From: a virus
Direction: 5' to 3' (one strand)
Virus record (IMG/VR): IMGVR_UViG_3300047299_000161
Location: 1-38,162 of that record
DNA: 38,162 bases
The stretch's first letter is position 1. Every line of letters begins with the position of its first letter. Of this stretch, positions 1 to 33,851 are shown one piece after another. The position numbers and the translations under genes were made by a program. Under the pieces are notes generated by a model, which had not been told where the DNA came from, did no database searches, and worked only from the letters and a program-made list of their open reading frames with translations.

Positions 1-124
1 AGGGGATTCGAACCATGATGATTACTAACTCGCGACACTTTCATCATCTTTAAATTAACCTAGCTTATAAAAGCACCCAATTTACCGGTGGGCCGTGTTT
101 CCCTACACGAGTACAATCATATTG
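1..124 (-). other. Unassigned structured non-coding stretch with a T-arm-like end
   Basis: Read on the minus strand, this stretch ends at the window edge with GGTTCGAATCCCC, which looks like a tRNA T loop, but the flanking T stem (CATGG against CCCCT) pairs at only two positions. Upstream are a CGTGT/ACACG hairpin, a CCCA/TGGG pairing and a GATGAT/ATCATC pairing (43-48 with 17-22). I could not fold a normal anticodon arm. It may be a partial tRNA-like RNA cut by the window or a degenerate tRNA. No coding frame is seen. Confidence 0.3.
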
Positions 125-197
125 TGACTCCGGGTGGGCTCGAACCACCAATTTCCTAATTAAAAGTTAGGAGCCTTACCAATTTGGCCACGAAGTC
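125..197 (-). tRNA. tRNA-Lys (anticodon UUU)
   Basis: Complete 73-nt cloverleaf. The acceptor is GACTTCG with CGGAGTC (one G-U pair). The D arm is GCC/GGC. The anticodon stem CCTAA/TTAGG holds loop CTTTTAA, giving UUU. The T arm is GGTGG, TTCGAGC, CCACC. The discriminator is A and CCA is not encoded. It is the leftmost complete member of the tRNA cluster and lies downstream of the promoter-like element at 831-883. Confidence 0.96.
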
Positions 198-391
198 TTG
201 CCTTTTTTAGAGTTTTTGAATAGAACTCAAGGACAGTACGACCTATAAACTAATAAAGAGTGTAAAAGAAACGTCTTACCTAAGACCGCGAATCCATGTA
301 AGACTTAACTTTACCAGCTTAATGATTTGCAACTCATATAGATGTCCAGTTACTACTATACTGCTTCTTTTACTGCTTCCAGTTTCTTACT
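198..391 (-). other. Non-coding spacer with a 7-bp hairpin
   Basis: No convincing gene was found between the tRNA-like element and tRNA-Lys. A perfect 7-bp inverted repeat (GTCTTAC at 273-279, GTAAGAC at 298-304) encloses an 18-nt loop. A short AAA-CTG-GAA-GCA-GTA-like reading frame runs straight into TAG TAG TAA. The stretch may be a transcribed spacer or a small structured RNA. Confidence 0.3.
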
Positions 392-461
392 ACGACAATA
401 CAGGATTCGAACCTGTAACCTCCGGCTTCTGCCGGTGCTCTCACCATTGAGCTAATCGCCG
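392..461 (-). tRNA. Non-canonical tRNA-like gene with a 4-nt anticodon loop
   Basis: The acceptor (CGGCGAT with ATTGTCG, all seven pairs form with G-U), D arm (GCTC/GAGC, loop AATGGTGA) and T arm (ACAGG, TTCGAAT, CCTGT) are intact, and the variable loop is five bases. The anticodon stem is a strong CCGGC/GCCGG but closes a loop of only four bases, AGAA, where seven are required, so there is no U33 and no readable anticodon. Total length is 70 nt. The discriminator would be U. Either three loop bases have been deleted and the gene is dead, or this is a tRNA mimic that is not used in decoding. The fold is directly visible; the function is unknown. Confidence 0.6.
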
Positions 462-490
462 CAGTCATTAACTTTCTGCTTTTCTCTTTG

Positions 491-587
491 CAATCATGAT
501 TGGATTCGAACCAATTTCAGCTTTGCCATAAAGAGTCTATTTCAACTCAACCTTGGGGAGGTGCTTCCAACCAATGGACTCATGATT
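491..587 (-). tRNA. Non-canonical tRNA-like gene with an expanded anticodon/variable region
   Basis: The acceptor AATCATG/CATGATT and the T arm ATTGG, TTCGAAT, CCAAT are perfectly paired, and the D arm is TCC, ATTGGTT, GGA. Fifty bases lie between the D arm and the T arm, against about 22 in class I and up to about 38 in class II tRNAs. That interval can form ACC/GGT, GAGTT/GACTC and CTTT/AAAG hairpins, but no 7-base loop with U33 and a convincing 5-bp stem. The only 7-base option gives CCC with C33. It is either a tRNA carrying an insertion or a tRNA mimic; identity was not assigned. Confidence 0.5.
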
Positions 588-713
588 ATAAAAAATGTTG
601 CATCGTTAGATATGCTAAATGCTCTCTAATATTTATGTGCCATTCATGCTCTGGGTAAGGCTAACATAAGTTACTATACTTCGCTTAATGCTTCTATCAT
701 CTACATTTTTTTG

Positions 714-785
714 AGCAGATACCCGGAATCGAACCGAGATCTCAGGCTTGGAAGGCTAGAGTAATAACCGTTATACGATATCTGC
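714..785 (-). tRNA. tRNA-Gly (anticodon UCC)
   Basis: The acceptor GCAGATA/TATCTGC is perfect. The T arm is CTCGG, TTCGATT, CCGGG. The anticodon loop CTTCCAA gives UCC. The anticodon stem CTAGC/GCCTG has two mismatches, which is weak for a tRNA. The discriminator is U. It is the first gene after the promoter-like element at 831-883. Confidence 0.9.
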
Positions 786-830
786 TTGTGTTACCAATAT
801 GTCAAAGAACTCTCTTGTTTAATTTGATAT

Positions 831-883
831 GTAAATCTAACAATAATTCCCGAATAAAAAAAATATTTTAGCAATTATTTTCA
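831..883 (-). promoter_or_regulatory. Repeated phage promoter, copy a (tRNA cluster)
   Basis: Minus-strand element with the shared layout: AATAATTGC, an A/T block with a T run, TTCGGGAATT, then TTAGATTTAC as the -7 box. It overlaps the stop codon of the 58-aa gene and faces tRNA-Gly and the RNAs beyond it. It matches eight other copies in the window, with a slightly divergent core. Confidence 0.65.
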
Positions 884-1044
884 TTTATTAATTCAATTTC
901 TTTTTCTATTCCCAATCCGTGTTTTTCAGCTTGTATACAAAAACACACGGATGCTTCTGAAACTGCTTTAATAATATCTTCTATTGAATTTTCATCAGTG
1001 ACAGTTTCTATACCTAATAAAGGTATTTTAATAATGTTTGCCAT
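868..1044 (-). CDS. Small acidic protein inside the tRNA cluster (58 aa)
   Basis: An uninterrupted frame from ATG to TAA begins MANIIKIPLLG, continues through DENSIEDIIKAV and ends INENNC. It contains a Cys-Phe-Cys near residue 35. Codon use resembles the neighbouring genes. It lies between tRNA-Phe and tRNA-Gly, and its last codons form the upstream part of promoter copy a. It was too short for a typical ORF cut-off. I do not recognise the family. The likely coding nature rests on its length in AT-rich DNA and its clean fit between RNA genes. Confidence 0.6.
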   Translation of the reverse strand: MANIIKIPLLGIETVTDENSIEDIIKAVSEASVCFCIQAEKHGLGIEKEIELINENNC

Positions 1045-1063
1045 AACTTTGATTTATTTTTAG

Positions 1064-1136
1064 TGGGTCCTACAGGAATCGAACCTGTTCCTCTAGTTCT
1101 TCAGACTAGCGTACGCACCAGCTATACCAAAGACCC
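1064..1136 (-). tRNA. tRNA-Phe (anticodon GAA)
   Basis: 73 nt. Acceptor GGGTCTT/AGGACCC, anticodon stem CTAGT/ACTAG with loop CTGAAGA, T arm ACAGG, TTCGATT, CCTGT, and discriminator A. All arms are well paired. CCA is not encoded. Confidence 0.96.
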
Positions 1137-1141
1137 AATAG

Positions 1142-1211
1142 AGTACAAGGTCAGAATCGAACTGACTCCGCAGATTTTGCAGACCTGCTGGCCTCCACGA
1201 CCAACTCGTAC
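1142..1211 (-). tRNA. tRNA-Cys (anticodon GCA)
   Basis: 70 nt. Acceptor GTACGAG/CTTGTAC, anticodon stem CAGGT/ATCTG with loop CTGCAAA, T arm GTCAG, TTCGATT, CTGAC, and discriminator U as usual for tRNA-Cys. Only five bases separate it from tRNA-Phe. Confidence 0.95.
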
Positions 1212-1219
1212 TTTTTTTG

Positions 1220-1300
1220 TACCCAGGGAGAGACTCGAACTCTCACGTCTTGCGACCACGGTTTCTAAGACCGTTATGTCTACCATTCCATCACCCGGGC
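1220..1300 (-). tRNA. tRNA-Leu (anticodon UAG)
   Basis: 81-nt class II tRNA. Acceptor GCCCGGG/CCTGGGT with G-U pairs, anticodon stem ACGGT/ACCGT with loop CTTAGAA, a long variable arm (around GGTCGCAAGACG), T arm GAGAG, TTCGAGT, CTCTC, and discriminator A. Confidence 0.95.
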
Positions 1301-1334
1301 AACTTTACCAATATGTCAAAGAACTATTCTTTTG

Positions 1335-1410
1335 TCTAGATGGCAGGATTTGAACCTGCGTGCTCTTACGTCCAAGGTAAGCGAGATAGACCTGACTCCT
1401 CTACATCTAG
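1335..1410 (-). tRNA. tRNA-Pro (anticodon UGG)
   Basis: 76 nt. Acceptor CTAGATG/CATCTAG perfect, anticodon stem CTTAC/GTAAG with loop CTTGGAC, T arm GCAGG, TTCAAAT, CCTGC, and discriminator A. It begins just after the terminator at 1421-1447. Confidence 0.95.
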
Positions 1411-1920: not shown

Positions 1921-2122
1921 GTTGTTATATTTTATTTTATTGGTTTATTTTTTTCTAGTTTCTGGTTTACTTTTTAAGTAGGACCAGCTCTAGCGAACCA
2001 TAAAATAAAATCAACATTAATCTAGTACTTTTTCATGATTTTAGTTTTATTTTTATGTTATACACTTACATAAAAGTTAGTTTCATTTAAGTGTTAAAAA
2101 ATTATATATCTTTTTATTTTTG

Positions 2123-2194
2123 TGTCCAACAAGGGAATCGAACCCTTCTCCTCGGTTTTAGAGACCGTTATAATAACCTCTATACTAGTCGGAC
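2123..2194 (-). tRNA. tRNA with CUA anticodon (amber suppressor type)
   Basis: 72 nt. The acceptor GTCCGAC/GTTGGAC is fully paired with G-U. The D arm is GTAT with loop AGAGGTTA. The T arm AAGGG, TTCGATT, CCCTT is perfect and the discriminator is A. The anticodon stem ACGGT/ACCGA has four pairs plus an outer A-A mismatch. The loop is CTCTAAA, which puts C34 U35 A36 after U33, so it should read UAG. The neighbouring tRNA-Leu has the same stem with loop CTTAGAA, which confirms the register. The amino acid is unknown; characterised phage suppressor tRNAs often insert Gln. It sits immediately downstream of the nucleotidase gene. Confidence 0.85.
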
Positions 2195-9535: not shown

Positions 9536-10282
9536 TTATAAATGTAAGAAGTATTCATCCTTCTCAATTAAAGATTTTATATGATTATGTAGATTTGTTT
9601 CAGCGTGGCGATCTATATTTCCTAAAATGAATCGATTGTCAATAGGCCTACCAAAACAAACTGCTGGTTCGTATTCTTCAATATATTCATCTAAGCTACA
9701 ATTTGTGTATAAGAAGAATGCCAATTCTTCAACATTTGCATTGATACCCTTATCTTCAACTATTTTAAATAGATCTTTACCAAATGTAGATTCATTAACG
9801 TAAATAAAACCTGCGTTTGGTATGATTAGCTCATTTCCTAATCGCCAACTCCATTTTTTAATTAAAGGAATAAGATTATTGGTCCACATTGCTGCATGCC
9901 CATCTAGCTTATTTTTTAGCTTCAAGTATTCTATTGGATATGAATATGTAGGCATTAAAATTCTTTTGTCTATCAGCGATTCATAAAAGGCATCATCTAG
10001 GGGTTTAATCAGTTTCATGTCCCAGTCTAATAATATAAATCTTTTAAAATCTTGGCATGCTCTATAAATTACCTTTAGTTTATTTAAAAATTTATTGATT
10101 TCTGCTTCACCGCCAAATGGATCTAAACTTATAATTTCAGTTTCATAACCCATTTTCTCAAATTTAGCTTGGTTTTCTTTACCAAATACATACACCAACT
10201 CATTGAATTGTGGTTTTTTTGGTACTTCAGAAAAATCAGTACCCCAAAAGGCTCTAACTATTCTAACGTCTTTCATATCCAT
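9536..10282 (-). CDS. Putative GT-A-fold glycosyltransferase (248 aa)
   Basis: An ILLDWDMKLIKPL segment (about residues 93-105) gives a DxD-type metal site after a hydrophobic strand, and the order of beta strands (VRIVRAFWG, LVYVFGK) resembles nucleotide-diphospho-sugar transferases. A later IIPNAGFIYVN fits the acceptor part. Its start overlaps the end of the GT25 gene. Family assignment is by pattern only. Confidence 0.65.
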   Translation of the reverse strand: MDMKDVRIVRAFWGTDFSEVPKKPQFNELVYVFGKENQAKFEKMGYETEIISLDPFGGEAEINKFLNKLKVIYRACQDFKRFILLDWDMKLIKPLDDAFYESLIDKRILMPTYSYPIEYLKLKNKLDGHAAMWTNNLIPLIKKWSWRLGNELIIPNAGFIYVNESTFGKDLFKIVEDKGINANVEELAFFLYTNCSLDEYIEEYEPAVCFGRPIDNRFILGNIDRHAETNLHNHIKSLIEKDEYFLHL

Positions 10283-10823
10283 TTGGAGCTATGTTTGAAA
10301 TAAAGCGATGTTCTACCTGCATAAAAATAGGTTCAGCCTCTTTTTTGATTTTAAATTCAATTGGTAATTTTGACAATTCCCAATCATAGGCCTGTGTTAC
10401 AGTATGTGTATTTAAATAGTGTAGAATTTTCTTTGCACCTTCAGGTGTTACCATGTATGCAAAACATGCAACATCTTTACCCGTTAAATTCCATAGATCA
10501 AAATCAAAATCAATTTCATTCCAATCTATTTGCTTAACTATATCAATGTCATCCTCTAGAATCAGAACATTTTCATTAGTTCTAGCTGCAATTTTTAATA
10601 AGATTACATGGCTTATAAAGGTTGCCATTACAGCTTCTTCGTTAATATCCCATTCGTGGAAATCAGTTGCATTGAAAAAAGATTTTATATTAGGCGTTAA
10701 CCTATTTGGAGTAAACGCGTCAAAGAATTCAAAATCTAAGCCAATTTTAGATTTAATGGAATTCATCCATTTTCTTCTTTCATAATCTTTTACAAGGGAC
10801 AATATGTAAGTTTTAAATTTCAA
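10263..10823 (-). CDS. Glycosyltransferase family 25-like protein
   Basis: 186 aa. Starts MKFKTYILSLVKDYERRKWM, the GT25 opening (strand, then Asp-Arg-Arg), with VLILEDDIDI (about 85-94) as the acidic motif and a GAKKILHYL helix. GT25 enzymes add galactose or similar sugars to LPS or proteins. The stop TAG overlaps the start of the downstream transferase. Slightly short for the family (about 200-260 aa). Confidence 0.8.
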   Translation of the reverse strand: MKFKTYILSLVKDYERRKWMNSIKSKIGLDFEFFDAFTPNRLTPNIKSFFNATDFHEWDINEEAVMATFISHVILLKIAARTNENVLILEDDIDIVKQIDWNEIDFDFDLWNLTGKDVACFAYMVTPEGAKKILHYLNTHTVTQAYDWELSKLPIEFKIKKEAEPIFMQVEHRFISNIAPNGYERR

Positions 10824-22204: not shown

Positions 22205-22849
22205 TTAAATTTCGTGATGGTCAAAGTGAAACATTGATTTAATAGGTTGCTTCTTCATGATAGCAAGAACTTCATTCAATGGAATAGGAGCCAAGTCATT
22301 TCCGTCAACTCCAACATCCATCATTTTACCCGGGCCAACTCTACGACCTTTTGGTAAGTGAACGTGGCCATGTAAGTGCATTACTCCTTGACCCATGTCT
22401 TGCCAACTTGCTATCGGGAAGTGGCTTAAGATGAAACGGTGTTTCATGGCAGGCTCACCCTTGGACTTTGCCTGCTCCACTATAGTCAAATAACAGTATT
22501 GATGAACCGACGTGAAAATGTCTTGGATGTCCTCCTTGTTATTCTGAATATGGTGGTCATGGTTACCCAAGATCAAGTGTATGTTCTTACATACCAATTG
22601 ATTTCTGAAATTAGAGATAGATTCAAAGCCTCCAAAGCTCCAGTCACCCAGGTGTATTAGGATGTCATTCTCATCTACCACCTCATTAATCTTATTAACT
22701 ATTACGGAGTTCATGTGGCTTAACGTGTCAAAGTCTCGTGTCCCTCTAGAGCCATCCCATTCTGAAACACCACGGCAAATGTTTGTGTGGTTGTAATGGG
22801 TATCGCTGGTGAAGAATACTCTTTGTCCTTTTTCTACTACTATTTTCAT
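22205..22849 (-). CDS. Calcineurin-like metallophosphoesterase (214 aa)
   Basis: All metal-site motifs are present: SDTHYNH (15-21), HLGDWSFGG (about 66-74), LGNHDHH (about 93-99), ILSHFPI and the terminal HLHGHVH. Such small phage phosphoesterases remove phosphates from nucleotides or nucleic-acid ends; the related domain in bacterial Pnkp removes 2',3'-cyclic and 3'-phosphates. First gene after promoter copy f, followed within five bases by the kinase. In this setting RNA 3'-end healing is a reasonable inference. Confidence 0.85.
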   Translation of the reverse strand: MKIVVEKGQRVFFTSDTHYNHTNICRGVSEWDGSRGTRDFDTLSHMNSVIVNKINEVVDENDILIHLGDWSFGGFESISNFRNQLVCKNIHLILGNHDHHIQNNKEDIQDIFTSVHQYCYLTIVEQAKSKGEPAMKHRFILSHFPIASWQDMGQGVMHLHGHVHLPKGRRVGPGKMMDVGVDGNDLAPIPLNEVLAIMKKQPIKSMFHFDHHEI

Positions 22850-23285: not shown

Positions 23286-24806
23286 TTATTTTAATTTAGC
23301 TCTAATTTCAGTTAAAGTTGTTTGATTTTCAAATTGACCATCTTTGTAGATAGTTTGTAATTCACCATTTTTCTCATTGTCCCAAGTCACTTTATCAACT
23401 AACATATACCCATTTTCATTACTTTTAGTAACATGTAACAATCCAGTTGCAGATTTTTTAGTACCATCATCAGTGATTGGATCTTTAAAGATCTCACGAC
23501 CTTCAATCCATTCTGGATTTGCATTTTTATTAAAAGCTTGATTAAGTCTTTCAGTTGCAACATCCCAGCGTTTAACTTCAACGTAAGTAGCTTTCATTGC
23601 AAAACCAAAAGTATCTCGGGTGTTATATTGATATGTGAAACTTCCAACGCCTAATACAATATTTGTACTTGCAAATCCTTTTGCTTCTAAACGTCTACAG
23701 ATTTCGTCAGCTCTTTCAATTGTGATAGAATCTCCATAGATTGCTCCAATATGAGGGTCAAGAACTTTATAACCTTGTTCGTTGATAGTTCCACCAAATA
23801 CATCCCATAATAATTCAATAACTCCTTTGTATTTTGCGTCTTTTAAACCATATTCACTCAATGGTGTTTGTAGTCCACAAATAATATCTACAGGATCTCC
23901 AGAGTCAGGACGAATAACTACTTTACCATCTCTTGCTAAAATCTCTTCTTTCAAAGTAACTACATGTTCGGTACAAACTTTCCATAAGTCCCATGTATCT
24001 GATACGATTGAAAGAATTCCAGTTGGATATGTTTTCATCAAATTTCGGAATGTACCAACTTCATCGTCCTTAGTTCCAGCACACATTACTGAGTGTTCAG
24101 TAGCATTCACAGAACCAGCTACGAATTCAGTTTCATTGTAATATTTACGTGCTCCAAAGATTGCCGGTAAGCTATCTGAACCTGAGAAACTTGTTAAGTG
24201 ACCAAGACCTGAAGAGATTACAGCATCAACTGAATCCATACCTCTCATCGAGAAGTCATGTCCTTGCCAATCAATAAACCAGCTTCTTTCCGCATCCGTC
24301 TTTTCTTGCCACTTAGTTAATACCTTACGATATTGGTGCGCAATTGTCGCAGAAGTCATTGGTTTCCATAACAAGTTAGAGATGATTGTCTCTAAGTAGT
24401 TAGTTATCCAAAAGAAATCTGGGTGAGTATTGTAAATTGTCAAAACAGGGACCTTGATAGGGACTAGAGTACCTTCTGGAAGTGCTTTAACTGCAATTGG
24501 TAAATAACCCAAATCATGTAAAGCTTCAAAGTGACTAACATCGTAATCAGTGTTTAAATACATTGACAACTCGCGTTTCATTTCACCACAAACTTCATCT
24601 TTAGGTTTGCTAAAGAAATCTTTTTGAAAGGCTTCATGAATTTGTTGCATTACCATCTGTTGACCAAAAGAGACAACCTGGTCACATCCTTTAGGTGCAT
24701 ATTTATTACTACGAGGAGTAAAGTTAGAATAGACTAATGTAGTTCCCTTTGGGTACTGTTGGTGATGGCCTGTTTTGTAGCCGTCTGTTAAAAGTAATGG
24801 ATTCAT
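23286..24806 (-). CDS. Nicotinamide phosphoribosyltransferase homologue (NAMPT/NadV; possible Namat)
   Basis: 506 aa, close to human NAMPT (491). The opening LLTDGYKTGHHQQYP is diagnostic. HDFSMRGM (183-190), SGSDS (208-212), ATEHS with His238, RPDSGDP (299-305) and a late TRDTFGFAMKATYVE-type segment fit the substrate and PRPP sites. NAMPT makes NMN from nicotinamide and PRPP. In the phage NARP1 pathway a NAMPT homologue instead joins nicotinamide to ADPR-pyrophosphate, giving NAD directly. A divergent PRPP-synthetase homologue at 27807 under the same promoter type makes that alternative attractive. It heads the promoter-g unit. Confidence 0.93.
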   Translation of the reverse strand: MNPLLLTDGYKTGHHQQYPKGTTLVYSNFTPRSNKYAPKGCDQVVSFGQQMVMQQIHEAFQKDFFSKPKDEVCGEMKRELSMYLNTDYDVSHFEALHDLGYLPIAVKALPEGTLVPIKVPVLTIYNTHPDFFWITNYLETIISNLLWKPMTSATIAHQYRKVLTKWQEKTDAERSWFIDWQGHDFSMRGMDSVDAVISSGLGHLTSFSGSDSLPAIFGARKYYNETEFVAGSVNATEHSVMCAGTKDDEVGTFRNLMKTYPTGILSIVSDTWDLWKVCTEHVVTLKEEILARDGKVVIRPDSGDPVDIICGLQTPLSEYGLKDAKYKGVIELLWDVFGGTINEQGYKVLDPHIGAIYGDSITIERADEICRRLEAKGFASTNIVLGVGSFTYQYNTRDTFGFAMKATYVEVKRWDVATERLNQAFNKNANPEWIEGREIFKDPITDDGTKKSATGLLHVTKSNENGYMLVDKVTWDNEKNGELQTIYKDGQFENQTTLTEIRAKLK

Positions 24807-27209: not shown

Positions 27210-27683
27210 TTATGGTTTATAAATTACTACTGACACTTTCATGTCTTTTAATTCTGTTTGAATAATCTGCTTAATTTGGTTCCAATCTCCTCCAGCTAAT
27301 CCAGCTCCAATCTTTGGTAAGCCAATGTGTTTACCTTTAAATCTATAATTAATTTTACGCATACACATTGTTAAGGCCTCGTAATCAATTGGCTTAGCGT
27401 CTCCATCCTTATGGTTTCTACCATAATTAAACTGAGTATATGAATTAACAACAAAAGGAATAGGACCTTCTCGTTCAATGAACCACTCAATCTGTCCCAA
27501 TTTATTTATGTCTCCTTTACGAGTAAAAGATTCAAGACTGTATTGGTCAACTCCAAAGGCTTTTGCCATTTGAGGTGCTATTCCAGCTCCCATTTGACAC
27601 ATGCAATTACAACCGTGTGTGATTACGTCAAACTTACCTTCTTTGGCTAATTGAATTAAGTCGCCTTCGATTTCTTGATACAT
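27210..27683 (-). CDS. Macrodomain protein (ADP-ribose-binding or -processing)
   Basis: 157 aa. VITHGCNCMCQMGAGIAPQM (about 20-39) holds the Asn/Gly-rich catalytic loop, and IGLPKIGAGLAGGDWNQI (about 121-138) holds the second ADP-ribose loop of macrodomains such as Poa1p. These hydrolyse ADP-ribose-1''-phosphate or remove ADP-ribose. It is two genes downstream of the PRPP-synthetase homologue in the same unit, and NAMPT is nearby. It fits ADP-ribose metabolism, either of tRNA-repair by-products or of NADase products. Confidence 0.9.
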   Translation of the reverse strand: MYQEIEGDLIQLAKEGKFDVITHGCNCMCQMGAGIAPQMAKAFGVDQYSLESFTRKGDINKLGQIEWFIEREGPIPFVVNSYTQFNYGRNHKDGDAKPIDYEALTMCMRKINYRFKGKHIGLPKIGAGLAGGDWNQIKQIIQTELKDMKVSVVIYKP

Positions 27684-27806: not shown

Positions 27807-28718
27807 TTAAAATACATTAAATTGTTTTACTAAATTTGGTTTGGTTATACTTGACCCCTTGCTATTTGTAGTAGAAGCTCTGTCACCGTACTCCTTAGAT
27901 GTAATATCTTCATAAGAATTAGTGCAAAATACACCGTCAAACATTGCGTCAAGAGTATCGAAGCCTGCACTAAAGATTCCATGTGTCACTACTAAATAAA
28001 TTTTAGCAGTTGGACGACCATCTTTAATAGCTTTTGCTAACTCGACGAAAGTTCTACCACCATCACAAATATCATCAACGATAACGTATTTCAAATCTTT
28101 ATGTTGGTCTAACACGGGAATTTCAGTTCTTAGAATATTACCTGTCTTCATATCACGAACTTTATTAGCTGTGATTATCTTTTCAATGCCAAATTTCTTA
28201 GCAACATCAAAGATTTTCTTATAAGCGCCAGCATCTGGGCTTACTAAGCAAAAATTATCTACATCCGCTAATGGGTCAATATCCATTAAAGCGTACTTAA
28301 CAATCATGTGATTGTCAATTTTCTCATAATTATTTAAGCAAGCTTCCAATACATCTGAATGCGGGTCTAACACAACAACAGCTGTAAAATTCAATGAATT
28401 GATAATTGGACAAATTACTTGCTTTAAGTAATTAACACCACCTTCTTGAAATTTACGATCTGAACGAGAACCTAAGAAATATGGAGCATACAATACAATT
28501 TCGCGATTGGGCTTAATGTTTCTGATTGCGGCAACTGCGCAAATCAATAATTCAACATCTCTGAATGAATTTAAGCGAGTTACAATTTTTACAGCATCAC
28601 TATATCTTTCTAATGATTCAGTATCTGTTAAGTCTACTGTTTGCTGTCCATCTGGAAATTGACTGATTTTAAAACCAATATTTGAATTCTCTGGATAAGC
28701 TAAGTTTAATGTTATCAT
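27807..28718 (-). CDS. Ribose-phosphate pyrophosphokinase homologue (Prs; possible Adps)
   Basis: 303 aa. PRPP-binding loop VIVDDICDGGRT (212-223) is canonical, and VLDPHSD (117-122), LYAPYFLGSRSDRKF (76-90) and LVSPDAGAYK (158-167) are recognisable but divergent versions of Prs motifs. Prs transfers pyrophosphate from ATP to ribose-5-phosphate. Phage homologues of the NARP1 system (Adps) act on ADP-ribose instead. The altered substrate-side motifs and the linked NAMPT homologue and macrodomain gene are compatible with that. It is the first gene after promoter copy h. Confidence 0.92.
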   Translation of the reverse strand: MITLNLAYPENSNIGFKISQFPDGQQTVDLTDTESLERYSDAVKIVTRLNSFRDVELLICAVAAIRNIKPNREIVLYAPYFLGSRSDRKFQEGGVNYLKQVICPIINSLNFTAVVVLDPHSDVLEACLNNYEKIDNHMIVKYALMDIDPLADVDNFCLVSPDAGAYKKIFDVAKKFGIEKIITANKVRDMKTGNILRTEIPVLDQHKDLKYVIVDDICDGGRTFVELAKAIKDGRPTAKIYLVVTHGIFSAGFDTLDAMFDGVFCTNSYEDITSKEYGDRASTTNSKGSSITKPNLVKQFNVF

Positions 28719-28799: not shown

Positions 28800-29402
28800 T
28801 TAACAATCCAAAGAATCTGGATAATATAACAAAGTTGGATTCTTTTTCTGAATGTCCAAATCAGGATACTTCTCTTTAAACTTCATCACATCAAACTTCT
28901 TAGTGATAAGGTGATGACCGCTTTTAGTTGGAATGATAGCTTCAATTTTTGGACCGTATGGTTTACATTTATGATCGATATAAGCCATCATTAATGGACT
29001 CGCCTCCTTTATGTCATCAACATCAATGATCCATCTCTTTTCTTGAGTTTTGATTTGCCCAACAACAGAATCGAATAAGCCTTTTTGATTGTTGTTTCCA
29101 TCCTGAATTCTTTGAGCTAGAGTAACCATCATGTTTAGCGAAACATCAAAATGATTCTGCTTCTGAACATGAATATAAGCACGTGCTTTAAACATTTCAC
29201 AAAGCTGCATGATCTCATCATATCTACGTTCTAGATGGTCTATGCTCTCAATACAATAAGTCTTAATAGTTCTTACTGATTGGTGATTGTCTCGTTCTCC
29301 TTCAGGCTGATCTTTCTTACGCTTAAAAACGTACAGCATGTAAAAGTCTCCCTTCTTTTCGAAGTTAAGTAAAGGTCTTATTAATTCTAAATTGTTAATC
29401 AT
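28800..29402 (-). CDS. Hypothetical protein with primase-like motifs (200 aa)
   Basis: The segment RWIIDVDDIKEASP (about 126-139) gives an h-h-D-h-D pattern, and PTKSGHHLITKKF (about 159-171) gives an S-x-x-H pattern, in the order of motifs I and II of archaeo-eukaryotic-type primases (AEP). No motif III is evident, so this is a weak match. N-terminal part MINNLELIRPLLNFEKKGD is not helpful. It overlaps the 57-aa gene before it. Confidence 0.6.
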   Translation of the reverse strand: MINNLELIRPLLNFEKKGDFYMLYVFKRKKDQPEGERDNHQSVRTIKTYCIESIDHLERRYDEIMQLCEMFKARAYIHVQKQNHFDVSLNMMVTLAQRIQDGNNNQKGLFDSVVGQIKTQEKRWIIDVDDIKEASPLMMAYIDHKCKPYGPKIEAIIPTKSGHHLITKKFDVMKFKEKYPDLDIQKKNPTLLYYPDSLDC

Positions 29403-29568
29403 TGTCTTCGTTTTTATCTAGATCTTTCTTCCAGGATTTATCTTTTCTATTATACTTTGAATTGTCTCCATGATTCTTTTGCATCATGTTTCTACGAATT
29501 AAGGCCGCTAAATGACGTTCGGAATAACCGTCAATATCTGGATTCTTTGGTTTTTTCTTCTTTGCCAT
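29395..29568 (-). CDS. Small basic protein (57 aa)
   Basis: MAKKKKPKNPDIDGYSERHL start and Lys/Asp-rich end (KSWKKDLDKNEDND). Overlaps the primase-like gene start and begins three bases after the TAG of the protease-like gene. Probably nucleic-acid-associated by charge; no family. Confidence 0.7.
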   Translation of the reverse strand: MAKKKKPKNPDIDGYSERHLAALIRRNMMQKNHGDNSKYNRKDKSWKKDLDKNEDND

Positions 29569-29570
29569 AA

Positions 29571-30032
29571 CTATTTTACTTTAAATGCATAATGAACAAT
29601 GGTTCTTGGTTTCATAGCATCTGCTTGATTTCCGATTACACAGCCATTTTTAATTGTAAATGCATGACCTTGAACTAGCATGAAATAGGTTCCTTTAGGA
29701 TTTAATTTTGCAAACTTACCAACACTTAATCTGTAACGTTTACCTTTAGCATCATAAGTACAAGGTGATTTATATTTACTATACTCATTTGCCTTATCTC
29801 CTAAGATTTCAAAATTACTAGATAACCAATCAACTAATGGAAAAGTTCTTACGCCACGACCAGGTTTTCTCGTGAAGGTACGAGCAACAAAACTATGAGC
29901 TTGTTCGTATGGTATTTCCATAGCTGATGCAAGAGCTCTAACAACACAATCATTCTTTTCACGTTTAGCAACTAAAGATTCTGCATAACCTTCAATCGCT
30001 TCAGATGTTTTGATGTAAGTTAATTTTTCCAT
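29571..30032 (-). CDS. Papain-like cysteine peptidase-type protein (153 aa)
   Basis: KREKNDCVVRALASAMEIPYEQA (about 24-46, split here) places a Cys at the start of a helix as in papain/C39-like peptidases; GTYFMLVQGHAFTIKNG holds a His, and CVIGNQAD a following Asn/Asp, giving a plausible Cys-His-Asn triad. Similar proteins are common in large phages. First gene after promoter copy i; ends in TAG. Substrate unknown. Confidence 0.7.
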   Translation of the reverse strand: MEKLTYIKTSEAIEGYAESLVAKREKNDCVVRALASAMEIPYEQAHSFVARTFTRKPGRGVRTFPLVDWLSSNFEILGDKANEYSKYKSPCTYDAKGKRYRLSVGKFAKLNPKGTYFMLVQGHAFTIKNGCVIGNQADAMKPRTIVHYAFKVK

Positions 30033-30462: not shown

Positions 30463-31893
30463 TTAAACAATTGGAGCGTATCTTTCGCTCAAGATTGTTT
30501 TATCCATGATTTGTTGAGGAGACTCAATATCTCCTCCAAGTAAACTTGTCATAATTGCTGGAGAGAATCCTGACACTAATGCAGTTCCTGCTTTATCAAA
30601 CGCTACGGGTACTCCACCGTTTCTAGATTGAATGTTCCAGTACACAATTTGAGGCACTTTGTAACCTGCATCTGCATACATTTTTTCAATCATTTGTTGA
30701 GCAGTTGGATTCCATTTTCCACCTTCATTTCTCCAACCACCACCTCCGGTTGCTTGATTGAATTCCATGTCTGATAAGATAAGAATTTTATTTGGCATTT
30801 CTGCTTCAGATAAATTATGCTTAGTGGCCTGATTTAAAATCAGCTTGAAGGTCGCCTCGAGATTTGTTGACATACCCCAGTCGGAGCTTATCATCTGTGC
30901 GTAGCGATCTTTCAATGAACCACTTAATACTTGAAGTTGTGGATTACTTGAGAATGTGATGAAAGCATCTTTGAATGGACCTTCATTTCTTTCAGAAATA
31001 TAAAGACCCAATGAGACCGCAACATCCATACATGTTACAGTTTTATTGCCACCTGCTGAAGTTGACATAGAACCTGAAACGTCCACTACTGGTAAAATCA
31101 TATCATTTGCACCTTCCATATAATTTGGAAGAGCTTTCCATTGCTCATTTGCAACAGTTGCATTACCATGACCCAATGATTTTGTAACATCATAAGGGTA
31201 AACTGCGCCTGCGTTAATTTTAGCCTCTCCTTTCACTAAAGATTGGATATAAGCTGAATAGCTTTCGTATGCATTTCTTCCAAATGCCTTTTGATAACGT
31301 GCTGAAGCTACTGAAGGAATCTTACCAAATTCAATAGAATCCCATTCCTTAGCACACATTTTAGTTTCAACAACATTTGTCAATGTTACTAAAGTTTTAC
31401 GATATTGCTTTGGAGACATATTCATAAAGGCACGTAACGTTTCGGCTACTTTACCTTTACGTGGCATCCACTTAGCACATAGACCGTTTCCAGCTTTGAT
31501 TGCTTCAGCAATAACCTTTAAGGCGTCTTTCTCCATGTAAGTTCCAACAAGAACCAACAAGTCGTCAAAACGACCATATTCTGCGATTAAATGTAAGTTT
31601 GGTTTTAAGGCTAAATCGTGGTTTTCAGCCAAATAGACTAAAATGTCTTTGAAAACTTGACGTTCTCCAGCACCACCTCTAACATCACGTGCCCAGAATA
31701 AAAGCTTCATTGCACGCTTAGGATCTTCGTTAAACGCTTTAGAGAAAGTTGCAATTAGGCGCTGTTTATCTTGGCCTCTCATTGCTCCAATATTAAAGAA
31801 TAAATCAACGCATGCGTTCAACGATGTTGAATTGGTTGCCATTCCATTTTCAGTTAGTTGGTCCTCTTGACGTAAAGCATCTACAAAGTTCAT
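30463..31893 (-). CDS. Ro60-like RNA-binding protein: DUF2828/TROVE-type domain plus vWA
   Basis: 476 aa. N-terminal helical-repeat part with ALKLLFWARDVRGGAGER-type sequence (about 61-78), AEYGRFDDLLVL, CAKWMPRKGK and WDSIEF...VPSVASARYQKAF, the pattern of DUF2828/TROVE proteins. The C-terminal vWA domain has an intact MIDAS: DVSGS (271-275), Thr343 and Asp375. Ro60/Rsr proteins form rings that hold Y RNAs and misfolded RNA, and some phages encode them. The bacterial versions work with Y RNAs, some of which mimic tRNA. Here structured RNA follows directly, and tRNA-like RNAs occur elsewhere in the window. Confidence 0.82.
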   Translation of the reverse strand: MNFVDALRQEDQLTENGMATNSTSLNACVDLFFNIGAMRGQDKQRLIATFSKAFNEDPKRAMKLLFWARDVRGGAGERQVFKDILVYLAENHDLALKPNLHLIAEYGRFDDLLVLVGTYMEKDALKVIAEAIKAGNGLCAKWMPRKGKVAETLRAFMNMSPKQYRKTLVTLTNVVETKMCAKEWDSIEFGKIPSVASARYQKAFGRNAYESYSAYIQSLVKGEAKINAGAVYPYDVTKSLGHGNATVANEQWKALPNYMEGANDMILPVVDVSGSMSTSAGGNKTVTCMDVAVSLGLYISERNEGPFKDAFITFSSNPQLQVLSGSLKDRYAQMISSDWGMSTNLEATFKLILNQATKHNLSEAEMPNKILILSDMEFNQATGGGGWRNEGGKWNPTAQQMIEKMYADAGYKVPQIVYWNIQSRNGGVPVAFDKAGTALVSGFSPAIMTSLLGGDIESPQQIMDKTILSERYAPIV

Positions 31894-31949: not shown

Positions 31950-33851
31950 TCAACAATATTCACTAGTAATTTCAAAATATTTTTCGTATCTTGCGTTCAA
32001 CTTGTTAACATATTCATCTGTGTATTTTGCAACGCTAACATAGTGTTCTATCTTAGACTTTCTAATTTGTTCTAAATCAGATGAAATAATATAACCGTCT
32101 TTTTCGTCTAGAACACGGTGAGTTCTATTACTGAAAGCTCTATTTAAGATTCCTAGAAATGATTGCTCTTGTAAAAGAATTTTATAAGAATCATAACCTT
32201 CTCCGGTCATGGTCTTGTGGTCCCATTTTCTAAATTCAAACATCTTCACCATTTCAGCAAATTGATCGTTATTTGTGAACTTTTCAAACATAGTGTTATC
32301 AAGTCCCATAAATCCAGAATTAGTTGCTTGTAAACATGAAGTATTTGCGTAATATTCATCATTAATGTAAGCGCCAAAATGAACACATAATTTACCCATC
32401 ATACACTTATCTGAATCTGCAAATTGATCTGCACATGCGAACGGAATTTGATATGTTAATAGATGTTCTAATTCACCAATGGGTTTATCATTAAATAGAA
32501 TATCGTCATCATAAGTTAATAGATACTTAACTCTATTTTGGAAATAAAGTTTGTGATACATTAACAAATGGTAAATCCATTGCCATTCACCGAATTTTAC
32601 GATGATGTCTTCTGATAAATTTTTAGATCTAGCATATTCCTTATAGAATTCATCTCGATAAATTGTTAAAGAGTGACCATTGATTCTAGCGTAAGATGTA
32701 GCTCTATCAACTAAATCCTGATCAAAGTTATCTTCACCTTCTATTTCATTAATATTGATATGGAAGTCTAAATCATATTTAAATCCTATCTTATCGACTA
32801 ATTCGCATATAGCTACAAATTGTTGTTTGCCAAAAGCTCTCCAACTTCTAGAAACTGTTAGCTCTAATAAGTTGTCTCCCTTTGCTTTTTTTCTGTACTC
32901 TTTCTTAATGTGATTTATTAATTCAACACAAGTTGGATTAACCTGATTTGGAATTGCAAGCGGATGCACTAATGAAAGAGAATTACTAATCATTCTACTT
33001 CCTCTAAATTCCATGAAGGTATCTCCTGGAAATTCTAACACTACATCTACCAGATCAATCGCATCTTGAACACCTACGATATCGATCTTATTTGCCAACG
33101 CCCACATGATCCAAACTGTTTCATCACAATAGAACGAGTTGTCTGCGCATGCTTGAGCATATTGTTTATACTCTTCATTTACGAAATCTTTAGGTCTATA
33201 CGCAAAAAATGGACTAACGTACCAATTGTTGTTATCTAACCAATCCTTTAAAAATTCTGGAGTTAAACCTAATTGCTTGTCGAAAAAATTTAAGTATTGA
33301 CCTTTCTTTGGAATTCCATTATTTAAGTAAAGATGTCTAGACCAGAAAGTTTCATCGGCCTGTTTGCCATCATCTTTAACTAATAGAATTCCATTACCAA
33401 AACGATAATAGTCTTCAATCTTCTGATATAATTTACTAGGTTGTTCAGTAAAATAGAACATGTCAGAATCAGAAACAACTACAATTTCATAGTCCTTTAA
33501 TCTCTCATCTGAAGTAACTTGATATTTAACAGCGTTCCACTTTGGAACTTTAATAATCGCAGAAGGATCTATAAGACCACTAAATTGATGTACTGTATAT
33601 TCGTGAAAGTGTTCTTCGACATAGATATAAATGTCAGCTTTATCTAAAATGTCCGTATATAGAATTTGAGATAGGAGTGAATGGTACATATAGGGTAAAT
33701 ACGCCTCTGTCGACCATGTTTGATATACGGCTGCAATTTTCTTATCACCAGTATTTGCAATTGGTTGTTCTGGTTTTGGCCATCCGAAGAATCCTATTTC
33801 TTCTGCAACCCAAAACTTGTCATTATCATATCTGCGTTTTTTCTCTTCCAT
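31950..33851 (-). CDS. Two-domain GT-A-like glycosyltransferase (633 aa)
   Basis: Residues 1 to about 320 are clearly paralogous to the neighbouring 324-aa protein (shared AAVYQTWSTEAYLPY, SDSDMFYF, FYCDETVW, LSLVHPL and NPTC motifs). The SDSDM segment is a DxD-type metal site. A second, different domain follows (about 330-633) with YLLTYDDDILFND, another acidic metal-site candidate. Probably two transferase activities in one chain. Ends with TGA. Substrates unknown; it belongs to the right-hand glycan cassette. Confidence 0.75.
   Translation of the reverse strand: MEEKKRRYDNDKFWVAEEIGFFGWPKPEQPIANTGDKKIAAVYQTWSTEAYLPYMYHSLLSQILYTDILDKADIYIYVEEHFHEYTVHQFSGLIDPSAIIKVPKWNAVKYQVTSDERLKDYEIVVVSDSDMFYFTEQPSKLYQKIEDYYRFGNGILLVKDDGKQADETFWSRHLYLNNGIPKKGQYLNFFDKQLGLTPEFLKDWLDNNNWYVSPFFAYRPKDFVNEEYKQYAQACADNSFYCDETVWIMWALANKIDIVGVQDAIDLVDVVLEFPGDTFMEFRGSRMISNSLSLVHPLAIPNQVNPTCVELINHIKKEYRKKAKGDNLLELTVSRSWRAFGKQQFVAICELVDKIGFKYDLDFHININEIEGEDNFDQDLVDRATSYARINGHSLTIYRDEFYKEYARSKNLSEDIIVKFGEWQWIYHLLMYHKLYFQNRVKYLLTYDDDILFNDKPIGELEHLLTYQIPFACADQFADSDKCMMGKLCVHFGAYINDEYYANTSCLQATNSGFMGLDNTMFEKFTNNDQFAEMVKMFEFRKWDHKTMTGEGYDSYKILLQEQSFLGILNRAFSNRTHRVLDEKDGYIISSDLEQIRKSKIEHYVSVAKYTDEYVNKLNARYEKYFEITSEYC

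Follow-up and report, generated by a model that had tools for sequence, protein, structure and literature searches.

Suppressor tRNAs that read TAG are known from recoded phages, a Sup-CTA tRNA being present in 375 of 715 phages predicted to use code 15 (PMC11210395), and some have been linked to the theta ribozyme, an HDV-like ribozyme located at the tRNA 3′ end (PMC10879173). Pre-emergent suppressor tRNAs have been described in crAss-like phages (PMC7886860), and the Zeta clade of crAss-like phages is reported to carry CTA tRNAs without suppression, for which an anti-host role has been argued (PMC12386605). Such silent suppressor tRNAs could be forerunners of a code change or agents acting on the host. 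Here we analyzed a window of 38,162 bases, a virus-collection record that is probably a genome fragment, that contains a tRNA gene with the anticodon CUA, together with its phage relatives. The account that fits best, to which we assign a probability of about 55%, is that this gene encodes an accessory amber-suppressor tRNA giving partial read-through of UAG, with TAG left unreassigned.

ARAGORN called the tRNA with the anticodon CTA (Table 1), and the Rfam tRNA model scored the same gene at 53.7 bits, far above chance (E 5.9e-9 when the whole window is searched). The predicted fold is canonical, with the acceptor stem paired at 7/7 positions including one G-U, the T stem at 5/5, and CUA placed after U33 in an anticodon loop of 7 nt (CUCUAAA); mismatches are found at columns 13-22 in the D stem and 27-43, the outermost pair of the anticodon stem. 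The well-formed CUA tRNA noted in the first-pass annotation was thus borne out, and the gene is near certainly a real tRNA. tRNA-Pyl has an odd body that lacks the usual G18G19 and TTC motifs. This identity was rejected, since the D loop of the amber tRNA has GG and its T arm has GGTTCGA; 'tRNA-Pyl' is merely the name ARAGORN gives to any CTA anticodon. As for charging, the most similar cores, in the related contigs G036, G052, G053 and G048/G049, are arms of the tRNA-Trp(CCA) type, the whole-length neighbours are of mixed tRNA types, and Gln tRNAs of the relatives also have the discriminator A; together these point to no single amino acid. A search of positions 1-2300 for HDV-like ribozymes (E up to 1) gave zero matches with the models of Rfam 15, which may or may not include the theta motif.

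ARAGORN counted nine tRNA genes in the window, eight of them within 1-2200 on the minus strand, where the amber tRNA stands at the head of an array and is followed by Pro, Leu, Cys, Phe and Gly tRNAs. The array member at 391-462 (minus strand) has a good body (57.2 bits) and an anticodon stem that closes on four bases, leaving no usable anticodon. T-arm-like sequence was seen by eye at 485-585 and 1-115 (both minus strand), with neither a call from the tRNA programs nor an Rfam match. The hairpin downstream of the amber tRNA has a fold z of -2.3, and the differently built hairpin of the relative L001 one of -5.0. Beyond the hairpin lies a five-codon mini-ORF, ATG-AAA-AAG-TAC-TAG (2036-2022, minus strand), whose counterpart in L001 reads ATG-AAA-AGA-ATC-TAG (45-59, minus strand). 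It was dropped, the peptides past TAG having no visible likeness and the comparison comprising two sequences only. Farther along the window, at 15642-15918 (minus strand), a group I intron splits a tRNA in the anticodon loop (Rfam Intron_gpI, 74 bits at 15703-15894); in intron mode ARAGORN read it as tRNA-Arg(TCT) with a 203-base intron, Lys(UUU) being a splice alternative by eye, and an endonuclease-like ORF is located nearby at 14950-15570.

Among the 56 window genes taken, 44 end in TAA, 7 in TAG and 5 in TGA. All seven TAG stops listed in the first-pass annotation (6372, 9234, 10263, 16188, 20644, 21032 and 29571) were confirmed. The C-terminal extensions, given there as 9-15 residues, were measured as 9, 10, 2, 15, 6, 4 and 20 codons in that order, and read-through at 10263 and 29571 would run into a second TAG. 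Relatives or a family match were found for five of the seven genes. Orthologues of 29571-30032, from G029 and two other loci, have TAA at the identical end codon, indicating that TAG there is a stop. Depletion of TAG stops was not detected (7/56 in the window versus 216/2935 in related loci, p 0.19; these 2935 stops come from 129 loci, L001 included, some of which overlap on one contig). Nor were back-up stops enriched, a further stop lying within 10 codons downstream in 5/7 cases after TAG and 24/44 after TAA (p 0.68), and in the window the extension lengths past TAG resemble those past TAA. Stops that are neither depleted nor protected would be expected equally of an inactive tRNA and of one with weak activity, and partial read-through at the seven positions is possible. 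When orthologues were scanned, one candidate in-frame TAG emerged at 28800-29471, where an ORF with TAG as sense lengthens the gene 28800-29402 upstream. In the 29 alignments listed, nearly all proteins of this gene start at one MINNLE-type start and the upstream part is unconserved; the candidate was discarded because its TAG sits in this leader.

Table 1. Location of the amber tRNA, its surroundings, the TAG-ended genes and the off-code tRNAs of distant carriers (window coordinates unless another locus is named).
Feature	Location	Strand	Basis or relatives
Remaining tRNA array: Pro, Leu(UAG), Cys, Phe, Gly, one without a normal anticodon loop, Lys	124..1410	-	ARAGORN
Hairpin 3′ of the amber tRNA; differently built hairpin at the corresponding place in L001	2062..2094	-	Fold z and alignment
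Amber tRNA gene, anticodon CUA	2122..2194	-	ARAGORN; Rfam; 57-nt core and compensated acceptor pairs in L001
TAG-ended gene, extension 9 codons	6372..6767	-	G029 relative, 37%, also TAG-ended
TAG-ended gene, extension 10 codons	9234..9527	-	G029 relative, 51%, TAA stop 8 residues earlier
TAG-ended gene, extension 2 codons, then TAG	10263..10823	-	Glucosyltransferase family phrog_2835, E 1.1e-7
TAG-ended ORF of 62 codons, maybe no gene, extension 15 codons	16188..16376	-	No relatives found
HNH endonuclease gene, TAG-ended, extension 6 codons	20644..21027	-	Family match
TAG-ended ORF, extension 4 codons	21032..21430	-	No family match
phrog_3754 gene, TAG-ended, extension 20 codons, then TAG	29571..30032	-	Orthologues TAA-ended at the same codon
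Off-code tRNAs and release-factor-like gene	L137 (G049:180001-200000) 16874-19179; L140; L142; L144 to L147 (G048)

Reading TAG as sense changed the ORF coverage of the window from 0.846 to 0.850, and TGA as sense gave 0.856. The control phage phAss-1 (record OQ749652, three annotated Sup-CTA tRNAs) had a coverage of 0.560 before and 0.958 after the same change over its first 40 kb, and of 0.817 and 0.936, respectively, over 40-90 kb; the clear gain in coding density that marks code 15 is thus present in phAss-1 and absent from the window and from the late contig G097 described below. The earlier description of a genome that carries a tRNA for decoding amber codons and yet retains TAG as a stop is supported. 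In 90-130 kb phAss-1 gains little (0.765 to 0.831, with TGA as sense higher at 0.853 and 9/55 ORFs TAG-ended), so that the early region of a recoded phage can look standard. The window genes searched, part of all its genes, look early or metabolic or have no assigned function; the protein 24879-25313 matches a head-maturation protease family weakly, and no terminase, capsid or lysis gene was seen among them. Late genes were therefore sought in relatives. With respect to metabolism, the window has a nicotinamide phosphoribosyltransferase gene at 23286-24806 (54% to annotated phage genes), near which a ribose-phosphate pyrophosphokinase-like gene (27210-27683) and a macro-domain-like gene (27807-28718) were named by eye; the three are possibly an NAD salvage set.

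The window protein 30463-31893 (family phrog_850) led to 80 related loci and the protein 22205-22849 to 75, and relatives of the protein 31950-33851 were not found in viral contigs. CUA pattern scans of 46, 45 and 3 records required a GGTTCRA T loop, so tRNAs may have been missed; ARAGORN confirmed a CUA tRNA in 4 of the 94 records (the window, L001, G048 and G049), and G046, G047 and G050 gave pattern-only matches outside these four. L001 was the sole other match to the core of the amber tRNA in viral contigs, also with a looser search, and there were 0 matches in genome contigs. ARAGORN further identified tmRNA genes in related phage contigs (L050 15323-15742 and L114 15064-15351; the one in G036 is of the permuted type, tmRNA*).

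L001 (12,635 bases) carries the amber tRNA at 161-233; 34% of this contig can be aligned with the window, at 75% identity. Comparing the two tRNA genes revealed differences in 9 of 73 columns: 8 of the 14 acceptor-stem positions and a single position in the D loop. Set against the 57-nt core, with its one difference, the acceptor stem shows an unusual split of rates within one tRNA. In L001 three acceptor pairs have changed on both sides and one has turned into a mismatch, and the anticodon arm is identical. In a shuffle control of the compensation 64 of 500 shuffles reached the observed value, which is weak with two sequences. The conserved core and the compensated stem argue that the amber tRNA works as a tRNA. 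With TAG as sense the coverage of L001 went from 0.836 to 0.840, which is no gain, and its phage lysozyme gene is complete.

The contig G036 (62,404 bases) is 93% identical to L001 across 96% of the latter, with one block of 94% over 11.4 kb. Its tRNA array is large and begins with Cys; a CUA tRNA was not found in G036 by pattern scan or ARAGORN, nor was a parent copy of the amber tRNA. In L001 the amber tRNA adjoins a gene whose G036 relative (78% identical DNA) sits just before the G036 array. Alignment searches with capsid and terminase recovered two late contigs, G097 (71,163 bases) and G098 (139,480 bases), which match each other at 93.4% identity across 96% of G097, the same distance as between L001 and G036. 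G097 shares the sample number of L001 (3300047392) and G098 that of G036 (3300021963), and from the shared numbers and the equal distances L001 and G097 would belong to one phage, G036 and G098 to another. No CUA tRNA was found by pattern in G097 or G098, as expected if the amber tRNA lies on L001 alone.

The late contig G097 looks standard-coded: its coverage is 0.936 under either code, the terminase match has no internal stop and the match to capsid covers residues 1-486 out of 487. When genes of G098 were compared with G097 DNA, none of 66 orthologue pairs had an in-frame TAG (one had an in-frame TAA), and none of 23 pairs from G036 had an in-frame stop in L001. One late gene has TAG as its stop in G097 but TAA in the sister G098; between G036 and L001 pairs TAG stops changed once each way. 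A 40-codon extension past TAG that overlaps no other ORF occurs in G036, where the CUA tRNA was not found. With the tRNA in L001, not found in G036, and no in-frame TAG in the 66 late orthologues, the amber tRNA seems to be gained and lost among sister phages without a change of code. A phage pair about 93% identical, of which one apparently lacks the amber tRNA and each has a standard-coded late-gene set, is a ready natural comparison, and it suggests that an amber tRNA alone pushes TAG neither out of stop positions nor into genes. Suppressor tRNAs in non-recoded phages being already published, this near-isogenic pair is a useful addition.

Two distant carriers, G048 (205,558 bases) and G049 (306,463 bases), share an identical CUA tRNA whose body is unlike that of the window; with the same tRNAs in the same order they look like one phage. 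Their coverage with TAG as sense (0.910 to 0.918 and 0.897 to 0.905, respectively) is that of standard-coded phages, and in G049 the terminase and the main capsid match have no internal stop. Both also carry a TCA (opal) tRNA as well as tRNAs whose loops have eight bases (ttcg in both, gagg in G049). About 2 kb away from the amber tRNA lies a gene for a release-factor-like protein of 133 residues (PF00472, 83.9 bits). Long in-frame extensions past TAG (three genes in G029, one each in G049 and G048) were rejected as read-through, as every one overlaps a downstream ORF and TAA stops show long extensions as well (at least 30 codons after 37 of 288 TAA stops in G049). Some large T4-like phages, the window and G048/G049 among them, might keep off-code tRNAs as purely trans-acting anti-host agents with their own genomes standard, a doubtful proposal that would make the amber tRNA a read-through or decoy weapon gained and lost as hosts change. 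In the 160 late-gene loci of relatives the top gain with TAG as sense was 0.104, where TGA gives 0.204, and none was typical of TAG recoding. The suggestion in the first-pass annotation that late genes beyond the window are recoded is therefore left unsupported by the late genes of relatives: G097 and G048/G049 are standard-coded, and the scan it proposed for in-frame TAG in late genes, run on relatives, returned none in the G097 pairs and a whole lysozyme gene in L001. Within the limits set by late genes that come from relatives of the window's phage and by the proposed L001-G097 link, we hold with high confidence that the phage group does not reassign TAG.

The accessory suppressor that we favour would occupy the variable first place in a large array of phage tRNA genes, and would probably be made and charged in the infected cell. 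Because of its anticodon it would compete with host release factor 1 at some UAG codons and cause partial read-through. In the phage's own genes TAG would be an ordinary stop, read-through adding just 2-20 residues in the window. The most plausible benefit, put forward tentatively, would be a disturbance of host messages that end in UAG.

Alternatively, the tRNA may be newly acquired and nearly neutral, with TAG codons not yet admitted to genes. Such an incipient code change has its precedent in the pre-emergence known from crAss-like phages (PMC7886860) and would suit both the presence of the tRNA in L001, not found in the 93% sister, and the single TAA-to-TAG stop difference in the carrier's late contig G097. 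The core, however, is common to the window and L001, whose aligned parts share only about 75% identity, so the tRNA is old or has moved, and an old amber tRNA should come with some in-frame TAG; we consider this explanation unlikely. That the gene is an inactive relic, not made or uncharged, would agree with TAG stops neither depleted nor backed up and with two stem positions mismatched in both the window and L001, plus one further in L001. The Rfam score and an anticodon arm kept identical through coordinated changes in three acceptor pairs make it improbable. Slightly less probable still is a decoy or spare part against host tRNA-cutting nucleases, in which reading of UAG is incidental: tRNA arrays have been discussed as counter-defence (PMC11025619), the amber tRNA lies within a large array beside a tRNA without an anticodon loop, and its acceptor stem, unlike its core, changes fast, but nothing links it to a nuclease and the rate contrast comes from two sequences only. 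Time-dependent recoding, with TAG read as an amino acid through the amber tRNA in late structural and lysis genes beyond the window, is known in other phages, and phAss-1 gains little in 90-130 kb and much in its first 40 kb, but the whole L001 lysozyme gene, the standard code of G097 and CUA-carrying G048/G049 and a typical TAG gain in 0 of 160 late-gene loci make it highly improbable.

Set beside known systems, the amber tRNA of the window resembles those of the Zeta crAss-like phages as described in PMC12386605: a CUA tRNA in a tRNA-rich phage whose genes bear no signs of amber suppression, retained across the group. The window's phage group appears T4-like rather than crAss-like, to judge from the Gp23 capsid of relatives. 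In Zeta, by the same account, TAG is rare and the next stop close, whereas TAG ends 7/56 genes of the window and back-ups are not enriched, a difference that argues against strong suppression here. As in the pre-emergence described for crAss-like phages (PMC7886860), one phage has the suppressor tRNA, its close relatives lack it or have a different one, and the codons are not reassigned; the crAss-like example in that source is a point change in the anticodon of tRNA-Gln, whereas here the carrier has an extra tRNA as the first of its array. The Sup-CTA tRNAs of phAss-1 (code 15) have an anticodon loop identical to that of the window and similar anticodon and T arms, yet phAss-1 reassigns TAG by the coverage test, and the window and its relatives do not.
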